DNA of 64,000 nucleotides, taken from positions 186,001-250,000 of the forward strand of contig NZ_LGKP01000008.1 in assembly GCF_001306135.1 (NCBI RefSeq), read 5' to 3'. The position numbers and the translations under genes were made by a program. This DNA is from Herpetosiphon geysericola. Lineage in GTDB: Bacteria > Chloroflexota > Chloroflexia > Chloroflexales > Herpetosiphonaceae. Shown here in pieces: positions 16,698 through 25,950 of the stretch (positions are counted from its first letter, which is position 1; every line of letters starts with the position of its first letter). The notes beneath the pieces were generated by a model that saw nothing but the letters and a program-made list of their open reading frames with translations, did not search any database and had not been told where the DNA came from.

Positions 16698-17330
16698 TTA
16701 ATTGAGAATTTTGATTTTCAAGCGCGCCAATTCTTCAATTGGAATACGATCGAATAAGACAAAACCATCGGCATCGGTCGTGCCGTTGTTCTCGTAGCTT
16801 GGCGACACGACCTTGACTTCGGTTCCAGCCTGATCAAAGGGATCGCGCTCTGGCACTTGAATGTAGCAGTGCAAGACAGCATGTTTTGGTTGCATGCTCT
16901 CGTACATCTCAATCGTCACATCGGGAATGCTCACCGACGATTGACGATAGGTGCCGATCAGCCGTTGGCCGCGCATTTGCCCAGTGTATTGCAATTGAAT
17001 TTGCATTTGCTGTAGCATTTGGTCAGAAAACTCGATCATAAAGCGATAGCCAACCGTTTCTGGGGCGGCGGTGATCAACGAGTGCTGGCGCAAAAATTTT
17101 AACGAAGGCGCTGGAATATTCTCGGCCATTGCTAGCGAATTGCTATACAAGGCATAACTGGCATCTAAGGCATCAAACAACTCGGCGCGGCAGCCTGAAC
17201 ATGTTTCAACATGGTCGGCGACGACTTGCAGCGCAGCATCTAATGGCGCGCCGAGGGCAACAGCATGGGCATACTCAACAAGACGTTGACGCATAATCTC
17301 GTGAGATGCGGTCGGAAGTGACGTGTTCAT
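16698..17330 (-). CDS. Zinc-finger anti-sigma-like protein with C-terminal Ig-like domain
   Basis: A 210-residue protein. Near residue 40-48 it has HVETCSGC, the H-X3-C-X2-C signature of zinc-binding anti-sigma (ZAS) domains. There is no transmembrane segment. The C-terminal third has TDADGFVLFDRIPIEEL, the repeat-like turn seen in carboxypeptidase-regulatory/Ig-like domains. It starts 20 bases after the stop of the sigma factor gene with AGGAAC as ribosome site, so the two are one operon. Inference: it binds and restrains that sigma factor. It could instead be a secondary sensor. The middle region (60-150) is not recognised. Confidence 0.65.
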   Translation of the reverse strand: MNTSLPTASHEIMRQRLVEYAHAVALGAPLDAALQVVADHVETCSGCRAELFDALDASYALYSNSLAMAENIPAPSLKFLRQHSLITAAPETVGYRFMIEFSDQMLQQMQIQLQYTGQMRGQRLIGTYRQSSVSIPDVTIEMYESMQPKHAVLHCYIQVPERDPFDQAGTEVKVVSPSYENNGTTDADGFVLFDRIPIEELARLKIKILN

Positions 17331-17350
17331 GGTAGTTCCTCACCAAATAG

Positions 17351-18130
17351 TTATTCGTAAGCAATCCCTAGATCAGTGGCAACAGCTTGCCAGCGGGGAT
17401 CATCACGCAGCCGCTTGATTGCTCGGCTCCGCAGGGTATGCACATGGCTTACGGTAGTTTCCAACGTCCGGCTAATCGCATTGTCATCTAGGCCGGTAAT
17501 ATATTTCAGCCACAATGCGGCTAATTGGTTATGTGAACGGGGATGTTCCCGTAAATAGGCGTTTAAACAGGCCGAGATGCGCTCCTTGGTTTCATGTTGA
17601 ATAACAACTGTGGCAGGAGCAATGCTTTGGGTATCTTCCAGCACATCGTAACGATTTTGACCCTCGTCATTCATGCTTGGTTGATCGAGTGAATCAGCGG
17701 GGTATTTCGTCCAACGGCGCAAACTGCGCAAGGCATTGTTCATTTGCAAACGCACAAATTCCCAAAACGCCCCAGGTTTGCGGCAATCGTCAAAATGTTT
17801 GAGCACCCGCTCAATCGTTGCCTGGGCAATTTCCTCAGCTGGTTCAAAACGTTTAAGCATGGCATAGCTATAGACCATGCGGAAAAGCTCCGTATAGCCA
17901 TCCTCACGTCGACCGAACCCTTCGCGGCCAGAACATGCATCGTATAACGAAATCATGTAGGCGCAAATCAGCGTTTGATCAAGCGTGCCTTGAAAATCGG
18001 TCTGGCGACGGCGCATAGTTCGTTGTACCAGCTCGTCGATTGAGAGCAGTGTCCATCCATATTTCTTGATCAGAAGAGTTGCACGTTCGGTATAGAGCTG
18101 CTCGCTATCAGATAATTGGGTCTCGAACAT
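17351..18130 (-). CDS. RNA polymerase sigma-70-like factor (ECF-type)
   Basis: A 259-residue sigma factor with region 2 (FEPAEEIAQATIERVLKHF, then AFWEFVRLQMNNALRSLRRW) and region 4 (LNAYLREHPRSHNQLAALWLKYITGLDDNAISRTL, then a helix-turn-helix VSHVHTLRSRAIKRLRD). The N-terminal 100 residues are longer than in a minimal ECF factor. ATG 18130 follows AAAGGTG; the longer frame adds 14 unlikely residues. It lies between the CHAT protease gene (88 bases upstream) and the anti-sigma-like gene (20 bases downstream). A 6-bp hairpin (18156-18173) lies just before the start and may influence its translation. Confidence 0.85.
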   Translation of the reverse strand: MFETQLSDSEQLYTERATLLIKKYGWTLLSIDELVQRTMRRRQTDFQGTLDQTLICAYMISLYDACSGREGFGRREDGYTELFRMVYSYAMLKRFEPAEEIAQATIERVLKHFDDCRKPGAFWEFVRLQMNNALRSLRRWTKYPADSLDQPSMNDEGQNRYDVLEDTQSIAPATVVIQHETKERISACLNAYLREHPRSHNQLAALWLKYITGLDDNAISRTLETTVSHVHTLRSRAIKRLRDDPRWQAVATDLGIAYE

Positions 18131-18218
18131 GGTGCGCACCTTTGCTTTCAGGCGTGATGCTCCGAGAAGCATCGTAAACAGTTATACAATGGTCGAACGA
18201 ACAGTGGTTACTTACACT

Positions 18219-20825
18219 TTAGGCTTTGCCGATCACCATAAAGCCAGCCCAAAAGCGTGGATCAGCCAAGGGGCTGTCGTTGGACTGACCATCAAGTTCA
18301 AACGGAATCGCGCTCGTCGGTAGCTGCCAAATTTGGAACTGTTTAATAATATCAGCCCGCGTCAAGTCTCGTACAGCAATGACTGCGTGTTTAAGTGCAA
18401 CTGCAATTCGTACTCCGGCCTGTAATTCATGATAAAAACGATCCATCACGAACAACGCCGCCACGTCTGAGGCATTCCACAACGAGCAGAGCAAGCTCCG
18501 CGTGCCAGCATATAAAAACGCTCGTTGCAGGCCATATTGGTCGTCGCTGACTGCCACAAAACTCCGCCCGCTAACACAGGCGCTGAGCACAACCAAATCA
18601 GTGTCGATCTGCACATGATCCATAATCGTTTGGGCGCTCAAGCTTTCGTTGCCAAGAATGAGGTGCGAATTGAGTGGTTGCTGGGCATCATACACACAGT
18701 GCGAGGCAATGTGAATAATCCGCGCGTCGTGGGCATAGCGCAAAAATTGATCGGTGGCTAATGCGCCTGTCCAAGCTTGGCCGCCAACAAGTTTGGCAAT
18801 TTCTTGAGCTTCATGTTCTGCATAAATCAAGGCATCGTCGCCAACGCTGTTGTAGCCAAAGCAATACTGTTGCTGTTGGCTGCTGGCTGGGCGGCCCAAG
18901 GCATAGCGCACCAAAATTGTGGCACTTGGAGCCAAGGCGATGGCTGGGTTTTCCGCGCGCACCAGCCAATTGCTATCGCTGGTTTGCAAGGCCATAAACG
19001 GCACATCGTGCAACGGCCCATGCGGCACAACATACACCAAATCAAGCGTGCTTAGCAAACGTTCGTATGGCTCGATTAAGGCTTGCGAAATGGCCTTCAA
19101 AATTCGCGGTTGCAGCAAGCGATGATGGCCGCCATGGCCACGGGTGAGGTTCAAAGGATTAAAGCTATGTTGCTGAATGGTCGCATTGGTTGCCGTAATC
19201 GCGACGCTATATAAGGCTGGCTCAAGGCTAAAGTGGTGCAAAATTGGCGATTTGCGTTCGGCCAAGGCTGCTAAGAAGCGCAATGATCGGCCTAAAACAC
19301 CAACCGTAAAGTATTCAACAATCGCTGTGCGTTGATCAAGCTTGGCTTGGATTTCGGCCAAATTGGCACATTGTTGCGAAAGCTCAGCGGCTGGGCTTGC
19401 ATCGCCTGCTTGCAGCGCATCAAGGAACGCTCGCGAACGAGCGCGTTCAATATAATCGACAGCTTGGGCAGCATCGCCGCGCTCAATACACAGCACAACC
19501 ATATGCTCATAGACCTGTTGGGCGGTGCTAATCAGGCCCAATTTGGTATCTTCATCGCGGAACGAAGTGCGCAAATCTTCGATAATCGCAATCGATTCGG
19601 CAAAGGCTGCAAATGCTGCGTCGATCGCGCCGCTGCGCCGTTCTGCATCGCCCCGATGGTTGAGAATTAAGGCTAATTCATGGCGATTGTTTTGTTGGCG
19701 CGCCAATGCCTCTGCTTGGGCATAAATTGCCAAGGCTGCTTGATAATCGTGCATGCTACAGTAGAGCAAGCCCAAAAATGCCAACGAATCGCGCAAACTA
19801 TCGTCATTTGGCACAACGCTGGCCCGCGCTGCTTCAATACTAATCTGATAAGCCTGTTCGCTGGCCGCCAAATCGCCTGCTAAATGCTTCAAAAAGCCAA
19901 TGTGCCAATACAAATTAGCCAAATCGCCAACCGTATCAAGGCTTTCATAGAGTGCCGCCGAACGGCTGAAATAGCTGTCGGCCTCATCCCAACGGCATAA
20001 ATAGAGCAAATTTGAGCCAACTTCGTAGAGCGCGTGGGCTTCGCGATAGCGATTGCCAGCCCGTTGCAAAGCCTCCAAGGCTTGTAAACTTAGCTCCAGC
20101 GCCTGTTCTGGGCGTTGCAAATGATTCGCCAAAATGCTCTGATTGAGCAAACTATGGCCTTGATAGAGCCAATTTTGCACCTGCTGAGCATGCTGCTGCT
20201 GCTCAATATAATGTTGAATTGCTTGGTCGTAGGCTCCACGAAACCAAGCCAAGGTGCCCAAACTATTAATCACCATCGGCAATAAATCGGCTTCGAGGTG
20301 GATGTCGTCGCGCAATTGTTGCAATACACTTTGGGCAAGTGCATACTGGCGTTCAAGCCGCATTTGAATAATGGCCTGGTAGAGCTGCAAAAGTTGCTGC
20401 TGACGCGGATTAACTTGCGGAATGCTGGTTGCTTGCTCTAAGACCTTGGCGATGGTTGGCCATTCGCGCCGCGCCGAAAGCAATTCTAAGTAAGATTCAA
20501 GGTAGTAGAGCCAGCGTTGCAGTTCAAAATTCCATGCCTCTGCGACTAGACGATTGAGTTGTTGCTGGCTATACTCAAAGGCAGCAGCAAAAACTTCATG
20601 TTCGCGGTGGGGAAGGTTAGTCAAGGCTGGAGCTTCACGCAATTCATACCAACCGTGATCATGGTGCTTGAGCATAAATGTGCTTTGGCAAAAACGCTCA
20701 ATTTGTTCGGGTGAGTACGGTGTGAGGCTAGCCAACTGAGCAGAATCACACCAACGCAAGAGCCAGATGTAAGATGTAAGTGCCGGTGCAACCGTTGATT
20801 CAAAGGCATCATCAAGTAAAACCAT
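18219..20825 (-). CDS. TPR-CHAT protein (caspase-like cysteine protease)
   Basis: About 868 residues. The N-terminal two-thirds is helical with many tetratricopeptide repeats (for example ALYEVGSNLLYLCRWDEADSYF and LALILNHRGDAERRSGAIDAAFAAF). The C-terminal 300 residues form a CHAT domain: IIHIASHC holds the catalytic His (about 709) and LVVLSACVSG the catalytic Cys (about 750), followed by GLQRAFLYAGTRSLLCSLW. Both dyad residues are present, so it should be an active protease triggered through its TPRs. A second ATG 12 codons upstream (20861) is possible, but 20825 has AAGGGTGAT. The sigma and anti-sigma genes lie directly downstream on the same strand. Confidence 0.88.
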   Translation of the reverse strand: MVLLDDAFESTVAPALTSYIWLLRWCDSAQLASLTPYSPEQIERFCQSTFMLKHHDHGWYELREAPALTNLPHREHEVFAAAFEYSQQQLNRLVAEAWNFELQRWLYYLESYLELLSARREWPTIAKVLEQATSIPQVNPRQQQLLQLYQAIIQMRLERQYALAQSVLQQLRDDIHLEADLLPMVINSLGTLAWFRGAYDQAIQHYIEQQQHAQQVQNWLYQGHSLLNQSILANHLQRPEQALELSLQALEALQRAGNRYREAHALYEVGSNLLYLCRWDEADSYFSRSAALYESLDTVGDLANLYWHIGFLKHLAGDLAASEQAYQISIEAARASVVPNDDSLRDSLAFLGLLYCSMHDYQAALAIYAQAEALARQQNNRHELALILNHRGDAERRSGAIDAAFAAFAESIAIIEDLRTSFRDEDTKLGLISTAQQVYEHMVVLCIERGDAAQAVDYIERARSRAFLDALQAGDASPAAELSQQCANLAEIQAKLDQRTAIVEYFTVGVLGRSLRFLAALAERKSPILHHFSLEPALYSVAITATNATIQQHSFNPLNLTRGHGGHHRLLQPRILKAISQALIEPYERLLSTLDLVYVVPHGPLHDVPFMALQTSDSNWLVRAENPAIALAPSATILVRYALGRPASSQQQQYCFGYNSVGDDALIYAEHEAQEIAKLVGGQAWTGALATDQFLRYAHDARIIHIASHCVYDAQQPLNSHLILGNESLSAQTIMDHVQIDTDLVVLSACVSGRSFVAVSDDQYGLQRAFLYAGTRSLLCSLWNASDVAALFVMDRFYHELQAGVRIAVALKHAVIAVRDLTRADIIKQFQIWQLPTSAIPFELDGQSNDSPLADPRFWAGFMVIGKA

Positions 20826-20900
20826 ACCATCACCCTTGGTGTATGCAACGCCATCCAGCATGCCTAGGTTTGTGAGAGGCCAGGCAGACTATCCGCGTAA

Positions 20901-20929
20901 TTGAAGCAAAGTACTAGCGCTACTATACT
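20901..20929 (+). promoter_or_regulatory. Sigma-70-type promoter for the zincin gene
   Basis: TTGAAG (20901-20906), a 17-base spacer and TATACT (20924-20929) lie 62 bases before the ATG at 20992. It sits in the divergent gap shared with the CHAT gene, so regulation of the two may be linked. Confidence 0.6.
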
Positions 20930-20991
20930 CGATTTTGATCGGCTTTGCTACCGAAGTAGCCCTTGTTTTGTGACATTGGGGGAATGCGATC

Positions 20992-23966: not shown

Positions 23967-24605
23967 TTAATCGAAATTCCCCAGCAAGCGGGCGAATGGG
24001 GCTAGCGATGGAATAATTGCCTGTTTGAGATAGGCTATAAGTCGCGTTTCGAACATGTGTAGGGCTGCTACAATTGGCTCAACTGGTCCAGCAGCAGCAT
24101 TCGTTTCAGCATAATCCCAAGCAAGCGGGTTGAGGTAGCGTTGAAGGGTTTCGATTGGCAGGCTGCCCTGCAAATCGCGTTTGGTATAGTGCAACACCAA
24201 CGGTAGCTTGCTGAAATTGCGCTTGTTGGCAGTTTGGATTCGGGCAATATGCTGGAGTTGCCGAATATTTTCTTGCAATTTATGGCGTTGCGAATCAGCC
24301 ACAAAAATTATAGCGTCAGCAATGCTGATCCAATGCTTGATATAACGCACATCCATTGCCGCGCCTGCTTGCCCAAGACAATGCAAGTGCAAGCGCCAAG
24401 CCCCAAGCTGTTGTTGCCCAAGCACACTACAGCTAACCAAACGAACTTCTTCGTGGGCATAGCGTTGTAGCGGGTAAATCAGTTGTTGGTGCTGCGCATA
24501 ATTGCTTGCAATATGCCGGATTGAGGAGCTTTTGCCGCTCGTGGCGGGGCCGCAATATATCACATTGCAATGAATGAGCTGATTAATTGCATCGAAAAAA
24601 GCCAT
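23967..24605 (-). CDS. MglA-like small GTPase
   Basis: A 212-residue Ras-like protein closest in pattern to MglA. The P-loop is GPATSGKS (19-26). The switch II region shows CLGQ where MglA has PGQ, followed by ADAIIFVADSQ, a strand typical of MglA. The base-recognition motif is TKRD (for N/TKXD). MglA sets polarity of gliding or pilus-driven motility with its GAP MglB. No mglB is adjacent; an orphan roadblock protein at 35055 might serve. The canonical DXXG Asp is absent, as in MglA. It is divergent from the AAA ATPase at 24721. AAGGGC precedes the start. Confidence 0.75.
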   Translation of the reverse strand: MAFFDAINQLIHCNVIYCGPATSGKSSSIRHIASNYAQHQQLIYPLQRYAHEEVRLVSCSVLGQQQLGAWRLHLHCLGQAGAAMDVRYIKHWISIADAIIFVADSQRHKLQENIRQLQHIARIQTANKRNFSKLPLVLHYTKRDLQGSLPIETLQRYLNPLAWDYAETNAAAGPVEPIVAALHMFETRLIAYLKQAIIPSLAPFARLLGNFD

Positions 24606-24720: not shown

Positions 24721-25950
24721 TTGAATAAAGAAACCTATATTAATGATGCGTTGCAGTTGTCGAGCCAATCGCTGACCTATATGGTGAGTCAGCAATTAGC
24801 CGCGCATTACCCGGATCAAGGCATTCTCCAAACTGGAGACTGCGATTTTGATGTGCGCAGCTATGCTGGGGCGGGCTTGTGTGAGGTTCAAACCCATCAA
24901 CACCCTTACCCACAAATTAACTATACCTGGTTACGGGGTGAGGAAGGTGGTGAGATTGCTCGTTCGTTGGAAAACGCTTGGCAAACCATTAGTTGGCAAG
25001 ACCAGAGCTTTGATTTGCTGCTGCTTTCGTGGACAGCTTATGGCACAACCTATAGTCTGCAATGGTTGATTGGCGCTTCACAAGCAGCTGTCGAAACGTT
25101 TTTCAGTGCAGTCTGCGATTGGAACACCGAAATTCGCGATGAAATTATGGTGTTCGATGAAGGCAGTTGGGAAAAAAGCCAAGAATTATACTATGCGATT
25201 AAAAATGCCTCGCTCGATAATTTGATTTTGCCTGGGACGCTCAAACACGATATTTTTCGCGATTTGCAGCGCTTTTTTGAAAGTAAAACCACCTACGAAC
25301 ACTATAATATTGCTTGGAAACGCGGGATCATTTTGGTTGGCCCGCCTGGCAACGGCAAAACCCATATGATCAAAGGGTTGTTGAATGCCTTGGAGTACCC
25401 ATGTTTGTACGTTAAAAGCTTCGATGCCCAATATTCGACCAATAACGCCAATATTCGGGCGGTGTTTGATCGGGCGCGGCGTAGTGCTCCCTGTATTGTG
25501 GTGCTCGAAGATTTAGATTCGTTGATCAACGATACCAACCGAGCCTTCTTTTTGAACGAAGTTGATGGTTTTAACGCAAATCAAGGGGTTGTGTTACTGG
25601 CGACGACCAACCATCCTGAGGCGATTGACCCAGCGATTATGAACCGCCCCAGCCGCTTTGATCGTAAATATTACTTTAGTTTGCCTGAATTGGCTGAGCG
25701 GATGGCCTACATTCAACAATGGAATACCGCGCTGCATAGCTCAACCCAACTCACTGAGCTAGGAATTCAACAAGCAGCTGAGGCTACCGACGGTTTTTCG
25801 TTTGCTTATTTGAAGGAATTATTTGTTTCGGCCTTGATGCGTTGGATCGATATTAAAGACCAAACCGATATGGATACCGTAATTTTGGAGCAAGCGACCT
25901 TCTTGCGTGAGCAAATGGTGACCGAGCAGCCTGAAGAAGACGAAGCCTAA
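24721..25950 (+). CDS. AAA family ATPase
   Basis: A 409-residue protein. The N-terminal 170 residues are not recognised. The AAA core follows: Walker A GPPGNGKT at 207-214, Walker B CIVVLEDLDSL, sensor 1 VVLLATTNHPEAID, and the second region of homology with arginine fingers NRPSRFDRKYYF. This resembles Cdc48/BCS1-type remodelling ATPases that act as hexamers on protein substrates. The start is TTG with AGGAGA 8 bases upstream; no in-frame ATG fits better. A TATACT box lies at 24671-24676. It is divergent from the MglA-like GTPase, which suggests a shared process, but this is inference. Confidence 0.82.
   Translation: MNKETYINDALQLSSQSLTYMVSQQLAAHYPDQGILQTGDCDFDVRSYAGAGLCEVQTHQHPYPQINYTWLRGEEGGEIARSLENAWQTISWQDQSFDLLLLSWTAYGTTYSLQWLIGASQAAVETFFSAVCDWNTEIRDEIMVFDEGSWEKSQELYYAIKNASLDNLILPGTLKHDIFRDLQRFFESKTTYEHYNIAWKRGIILVGPPGNGKTHMIKGLLNALEYPCLYVKSFDAQYSTNNANIRAVFDRARRSAPCIVVLEDLDSLINDTNRAFFLNEVDGFNANQGVVLLATTNHPEAIDPAIMNRPSRFDRKYYFSLPELAERMAYIQQWNTALHSSTQLTELGIQQAAEATDGFSFAYLKELFVSALMRWIDIKDQTDMDTVILEQATFLREQMVTEQPEEDEA

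Follow-up and report, generated by a model that had tools for sequence, protein, structure and literature searches.

The stretch of the Herpetosiphon geysericola genome analysed here (64,000 nucleotides, contig NZ_LGKP01000008.1, positions 186,001–250,000; hereafter the window, from an assembly of 6.14 Mb) encodes a TPR-CHAT protease-like protein, an extracytoplasmic function (ECF)-like sigma factor and an anti-sigma-like protein, which follow one another in that order on the minus strand, with the gene for a HExxH metalloprotease-like protein divergent from the first (Table 1). Judged from sequence, these four genes are a real and conserved module; the gene identities, the intact catalytic dyad of the CHAT protein, the conserved association and the anti-sigma family of the third protein are all apparent at that level. 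We propose, with a probability of roughly one half, that the CHAT protein, once activated, would cut the anti-sigma protein and free the sigma factor. A sequence-only reading of this locus had described the run of three minus-strand genes, with gaps of 88 and 20 bases. Both the run and its gaps are borne out, the 88 being counted from a sigma start at 18130 (46 bases if the ATG at 18172 is taken), and the set proves wider than that trio, the conserved fourth gene having gone unlisted.

The CHAT protein combines its C-terminal domain with five TPR_12 stretches (Pfam), and SAVED is not among its Pfam matches. The His/Cys dyad noticed previously is intact (His721 in HIASH, Cys762 in LSAC), and with the CHAT domain it marks the protein as a predicted protease. 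Full-length copies are present in three of four other Herpetosiphon genomes, the fourth being interrupted by a contig start. Of the 48 CHAT proteins counted as linked in our wider set, 47 retain the dyad and the 48th has a gap at the Cys.

The sigma protein is matched by TIGR02937 (sigma-70 ECF) over residues 93–257 at 6e-11, the 42.2 bits lying 0.7 below the 42.9 cut-off. Pfam models of sigma regions 2 and 4 match weakly, below cut-off, and profile searches of the PDB return SigH (8e-5), SigW (0.002) and RpoE (0.007). By this homology in regions 2 and 4, the protein is an ECF sigma factor. It carries an N-terminal extension of ~80–90 residues ahead of region 2. The start at 18130 is likelier than the one at which the frame opens, since residue 6 is the first to be matched in two other Herpetosiphon genomes, whose frames open at MRTMFETQL. 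The gene is 97–100% identical in four other Herpetosiphon genomes; the same range holds in H. giganteus DSM 589, H. aurantiacus DSM 785 and H. llansteffanensis CA052B. Weak matches of Cas8a/Csx9 to residues 119–224 (PADLOC, 6e-4; NCBIfam, 0.002) probably reflect chance similarity between helical proteins.

The third protein is predicted to begin with three helices (residues 10–66) that bear an Hx3Cx2C motif at 40–47, followed by a linker (~66–95) and a β-domain (97–208). Its AlphaFold2 model has a mean predicted local distance difference test (pLDDT) score of 80, with low confidence in the linker. His40, Cys44 and Cys47 are invariant in both alignments of relatives (8/8 and 13/13). Against solved structures, a profile of the family (A6, 39 proteins) finds the anti-sigma proteins ChrR (3.6e-5), DdvA (4.9e-4), RsiW (0.003) and RslA (0.013), the best match being a β-sandwich domain of NOMO2 (3.6e-7) that aligns with the C-terminal part; these anti-sigma factors turn up, weakly, also when the profile is limited to eight close relatives. 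Pfam detects zf-HC2 in 20 of the 39 family members and CarboxypepD_reg in 14, and NCBIfam an anti-sigma factor in 19. The window protein is assigned to this family by the alignment, the three invariant residues, the predicted fold and the place after a sigma gene. Its Hx3Cx2C motif, the homology of its family and the adjacent sigma gene mark it as a predicted zinc anti-sigma (ZAS) protein of class I. A hydropathy scan gave no obvious membrane segment in it and a peak above 2 in one of the 39 family members (L118). Foldseek and VIA-align searches with the model returned nothing at E 0.001 or better, and only Ig- or MATH-like β-folds with Z below 8; these matches hardly cover the anti-sigma part, and the absence of Csx30 among the matches listed carries no weight as evidence.

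The three genes co-occur conservedly both in Herpetosiphon and across Chloroflexota, so that the sequence-only reading passes the first of the checks by which it could have been refuted. Single-sequence queries of 251 Chloroflexota genomes found the sigma factor to have relatives, mostly weak, in 25 genomes and the zinc protein in 9, and the surroundings of twenty such matches were read. The window-type locus (locus A) is present in all five Herpetosiphon genomes, one copy being interrupted by a contig start within CHAT, and its three proteins are at least 90% identical within the genus. The same five genomes hold a paralogous locus B (C6:2320–8140, L063, in the window's own genome) with the same four gene kinds rearranged: the metalloprotease gene is divergent from CHAT, the anti-sigma gene is convergent with CHAT and overlaps it, and the sigma gene lies upstream of the anti-sigma gene. 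The locus B sigma factor is short (201 residues) and lacks the N-terminal extension. Upstream of it runs a long, highly conserved stretch (L063:8141–8400, with orthologues in L060, L061 and L062), in which an inverted repeat seen by eye in L063, GCCTAGG...TAGGCTAG, is a possible regulatory site.

Beyond these genomes, the locus B genes of G070 lie where a contig ends, and sigma is not among them. In another family, three genomes (G222, G190 and G094) carry metalloprotease, sigma and anti-sigma genes with CHAT divergent; in the distant genome G011, sigma and anti-sigma genes are accompanied by a relative of the metalloprotease and by a CHAT protein whose architecture differs. Genome G043 has a third kind of locus: at L058:4481–11116, a 970-residue CHAT protein is flanked on one side by a sigma factor and a 211-residue protein and on the other by a second, divergent sigma/anti-sigma pair. 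A scan of genome contigs with the sigma alignment found ten loci, all in Chloroflexota or its subgroups.

The phylum was surveyed through 100 regions around Chloroflexota CHAT matches, read with profile models. The sample is non-random: 98 regions came from the CHAT matches listed, minus known loci and some others (many of them orthologues), and two from another search. A sigma gene lies within 2 kb of 39 of the 111 CHAT open reading frames (ORFs) surveyed. For ORFs of 880–1140 residues with at least 2 kb upstream, a size class fixed after a first look at the data, the count is 33 of 55, against 2 of 45 for other lengths. The count is 28 of 55 with a narrower sigma model from which survey regions were kept out; the broad model was trained partly on survey sequences. 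An anti-sigma-like ORF is found within 2 kb of 38 of these 55 by model A6, which likewise includes survey sequences; both genes accompany 31, either one 40 and neither 15. Seen from the other side, a sigma gene accompanies 31 of the 38 survey CHATs that adjoin an anti-sigma-like gene. An anti-sigma model from outside the survey matches seven survey ORFs and no control ORF. The models for sigma, CHAT, anti-sigma, S8 and C11 matched nothing in 40 control regions of 13 kb, placed at round coordinates in ten of the genomes.

Among the 31 loci with both genes, the order is sigma, anti-sigma, CHAT in 23; the pair is divergent from CHAT in three, three have a fused frame and two are arranged otherwise. 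Because gene order varies between lineages, the link outlives rearrangement. Hx3Cx2C occurs in 24 of the 31 linked anti-sigma-like ORFs (whole ORF searched), compared with 2 of 608 control frames of 150–350 residues, many of them non-coding (first 170 residues searched). In three genomes the sigma factor, zinc domain and β-domain form one open frame beside CHAT (Table 1). As for plasmids, the anti-sigma model found no match across 13 plasmid CHAT regions, nor did tblastn of one anti-sigma relative against plasmids. The only sigma-model match in those regions is weak (0.006), to a Nonomuraea frame just before CHAT, and two of the four cyanobacterial regions contain DUF1822 and CHASE2, one of them also DUF928.

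A second protease is a recurrent neighbour of CHAT. In the HExxH protein, His230, Glu231, His234, Asp241 and Tyr243 are invariant among six aligned sequences; no Pfam family matched it above cut-off, and a structure model was set aside for its pLDDT of 37. Its relatives adjoin the same genes at locus A in four of the five Herpetosiphon genomes (the fifth stops at the contig start) and at locus B in all five, and stand beside them also in G070, G222, G190, G094 and G011. By eye, the locus B protein starts with a hydrophobic signal-like stretch, and that of locus A does not. The intergenic region between the divergent CHAT and metalloprotease genes is near-identical across four aligned Herpetosiphon sequences; intergenic regions were aligned, and no common promoter motif was named. 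In the survey loci, ten downstream genes, picked from 19 by motif or length, all match protease families, seven of them S8 subtilases and the other three C11 clostripain-like, with β-propeller repeats. With protease models seeded from these ten genes, a protease match lies within 3 kb of 19 of 48 linked CHATs; for unlinked CHATs of equal size the figure is 3 of 18, and for those of other length 2 of 45 (5 of 63 together). Large proteins of β-propeller (NHL or Kelch) plus C11 clostripain-like type come directly after CHAT at L131:6874–10569, L132:2184–5903 and L126:1156–5946.

Table 1. Coordinates of the module genes in the window and of fused frames at other loci.
Feature	Coordinates	Strand	Remarks
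Anti-sigma-like protein, 210 aa	16698..17330	-	HVETCSGC (Hx3Cx2C); 20 bases past sigma gene
ECF-like sigma factor	17351..18130	-	frame opens at 18172 (273 aa); start at 18130 (MFETQL) likelier
TPR-CHAT protease-like protein, 880 aa	18219..20861	-	PF12770, 156.9 bits, residues 587–879
Intergenic, candidate promoter region	20862..20991	.	common to divergent CHAT and metalloprotease genes
HExxH metalloprotease-like protein, 676 aa	20992..23022	+	fourth conserved gene, divergent from CHAT
Fused frames	L087:2454–3974, L094:8930–10492, L132:8765–10234		overlap CHAT or end 89 bases before it

ECF sigma factors are known to be released by proteolysis at membranes, as with RseA and RsiW, and in systems linked to CRISPR. 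In the cytosolic version proposed here, the N-terminal helical domain of the soluble zinc anti-sigma protein would keep the ECF sigma factor inactive, the C-terminal β-domain being attached through a flexible linker, and the TPR-CHAT protein would stay off until its TPR or N-terminal part gets a signal. Active CHAT would then cut the anti-sigma protein, probably within or beside the linker. The anti-sigma domain would let go or be degraded, and the freed sigma factor could activate its regulon, of which the divergent CHAT/metalloprotease region is a likely part. Binding, cleavage, release, regulon and trigger are the parts of this model that we infer, by analogy with Csx29/Csx30/CASP-sigma and CalpL/CalpT/CalpS.

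In favour of this model stand the survey co-occurrence set against the empty controls, a link that outlives rearrangement, the anti-sigma family profile with the frequency of Hx3Cx2C, the single sigma–anti-sigma frames, the intact dyads, the correlated distances of the three proteins, a conserved linker motif and the precedents of Csx29 and CalpL. Several observations weigh against release by CHAT or qualify this support. Within the survey, sigma is missing from the 2 kb around 22 of the 55 ORFs of TPR-CHAT size. Where five weak relatives of the sigma factor lie (L065–L069), the regions read show no CHAT, anti-sigma-like or metalloprotease match. Of 20 anti-sigma loci outside the survey (L234–L253; chosen as such, several on short contigs), 19 have a sigma gene and none has CHAT in the stretch; in L234, L236 and L238 a TPR ORF comes next, where the contig ends or close to it, and a transglutaminase-like gene (membrane-type) follows in L235, L240 and L246. 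As such pairs exist, CHAT is a frequent, not an obligatory, neighbour: 52 of the best 75 anti-sigma profile matches lie within 7 kb of a listed CHAT place, the profile consisting mostly of CHAT-linked proteins. The 210-residue protein on its own gave no Pfam or NCBIfam match, and the anti-sigma-like identity claimed for it earlier holds by the family profile but not by the single sequence. In the window's clade (13 sequences) the linker has a conserved motif resembling P-x-P-D-L-x-F-L (IPAPSLKFL in the window), which could be either a docking or cutting site or part of the contact that the anti-sigma domain makes with sigma. An internal Met is conserved where the anti-sigma part of the fused frames begins, and two separately translated products are possible. 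For the three proteins, pairwise distances are correlated across 39 loci (r 0.87–0.92; shuffles at most 0.27), a signal confounded by common ancestry that falls to r 0.64–0.76 for distant pairs only.

The pairs without CHAT, some of them followed by transglutaminase-like genes, would suit a circuit in which sigma and anti-sigma sense a signal of their own (zinc or thiol chemistry, or a ligand of the β-domain) and control expression of CHAT and the second protease, the substrate of CHAT lying elsewhere, for example in the second protease or a cell-death target. Redox responses are known for some Hx3Cx2C anti-sigma domains, and the frequency of second proteases beside linked CHATs also counts in favour of such a circuit. 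The β-domain and linker, however, have no evident sensor role, CHAT stands beside anti-sigma genes far above chance with a divergence pattern common to both, and a single sigma–anti-sigma frame beside CHAT fits proteolytic release; we regard sensing by the pair itself as possible, if unlikely on present evidence. It is improbable that CHAT cuts or degrades the sigma factor itself, for example at its N-terminal extension, with no anti-sigma involved. Such control has been proposed for ECF54 in the extracts of a review (PMC8999054), and the extension ahead of region 2 in the window sigma would offer a target, but 31 of the 33 sigma–CHAT loci also encode an anti-sigma-like protein, and locus B has CHAT beside a sigma factor that lacks any extension. 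The high identity inside Herpetosiphon would, if it were all, also fit chance neighbours or mere synteny from recent ancestry. Other gene orders at the paralogous and distant loci oppose this, as do the empty controls and the sparseness of sigma genes, the own genome having 30 sigma region-2 matches, about one per 205 kb. Chance neighbourhood was rejected on the survey co-occurrence set against the empty control regions, and we give this explanation almost no credence.

Published systems are compared here through extracts of the cited papers. The nearest precedent that we found, absent from the sequence-only reading, is the gene context of ECF54, for which the review proposes protease control and no anti-sigma, since carboxypeptidase, subtilase and CHAT proteins are encoded nearby (PMC8999054). 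Common to both is an ECF sigma factor near CHAT, and several of our Chloroflexota relatives have sigma, a CarboxypepD_reg-like protein, CHAT and a subtilase. Whereas ECF54 is described in those extracts as being without an anti-sigma, the CarboxypepD_reg-like family here bears a zinc anti-sigma domain; in addition, the window has a HExxH protein instead of a subtilase, and its 210-residue protein alone has no CarboxypepD_reg match. The comparison, which is one of gene context and not of sigma sequence group, suggests that in ECF54-like Chloroflexota loci the carboxypeptidase-like protein is the anti-sigma.

In type III-E CRISPR, with its CASP-sigma, the TPR-CHAT protease Csx29 cuts Csx30 (PMC10028731), and CHAT substrates are commonly encoded close to the protease gene (PMC9729208). 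The window resembles Craspase in having a TPR-CHAT protease, an ECF sigma factor and a two-domain sigma inhibitor with a linker (PMC10028731, PMC9729208), and differs in that its inhibitor bears Hx3Cx2C and a CarboxypepD_reg-like domain. There is no Csx30 among the profile or structure matches listed for the anti-sigma family, no Csx30 sequence having been compared directly. Membership of type III-E was rejected, the window CHAT scoring 34.4 bits against a Csx29 cut-off of 300; the Craspase analogy drawn earlier survives as a working principle and fails on this score. No Csx29 match in the 251 Chloroflexota genomes exceeds that value. Sigma-linked CHATs make up many of the top matches below it, yet they head the list of CHAT matches in general too, which makes them poor evidence on descent. 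As noted before, no CRISPR array is seen in the window (crude scan); the six window proteins scanned with PADLOC included no gRAMP, and only the sigma factor among them matched Cas8a, weakly. Elsewhere in the own genome, RAMP-family matches as in type III CRISPR occur on contigs C2, C23 and C44, far from the window (C45). With these on other contigs, a link in trans may exist, but the CHAT protein has no SAVED match in Pfam.

Other systems share parts of the arrangement. CalpL cuts CalpT, the anti-sigma of the ECF sigma factor CalpS (PMC11417357), as CHAT is proposed to do here; CalpL, however, is a Lon-SAVED protease activated by cyclic tetra-adenylate (cA4), unlike the CHAT protein of the window (PMC11417357). 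Neighbourhoods of EACC2-caspases likewise place a caspase-like protease near an ECF sigma gene, and also DUF1822, with another caspase architecture; the extracts of that study do not mention a zinc anti-sigma protein (PMC8195603). ChrR, RsiW, RslA and DdvA have the same Hx3Cx2C-type helical anti-sigma domain, which in the window is instead joined to a CarboxypepD_reg-like β-domain and encoded with CHAT. Searches of the open-licence PMC literature listed no paper on the sigma/anti-sigma/CHAT trio.

If the proposed release is correct, cytosolic caspase-like proteases would steer transcription in many Chloroflexota without CRISPR, and a large class of uncharacterised CHAT proteins would gain a function and a natural substrate. 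A gene context that published work describes as free of any anti-sigma would also gain one, and the signalling arm of Craspase a plausible origin. On that last point we suggest, with considerable doubt, that a CRISPR-free chromosomal module that is widespread across Chloroflexota and overlaps with the context of ECF54 may be the kind of ancestor from which the Csx29–Csx30–sigma arm of type III-E derives, CHAT routinely freeing sigma from a soluble zinc anti-sigma and, in some lineages, cutting a single inhibitor–sigma chain.

Two further genes of the window lie beyond the metalloprotease gene. Positions 23967–24605 (minus strand) encode a small GTPase-like protein whose matches to Gtr1/RagA and Arf are weak and fall below cut-offs, and 24721–25950 (plus strand) an AAA ATPase that matches PADLOC IetA models (1.1e-21).

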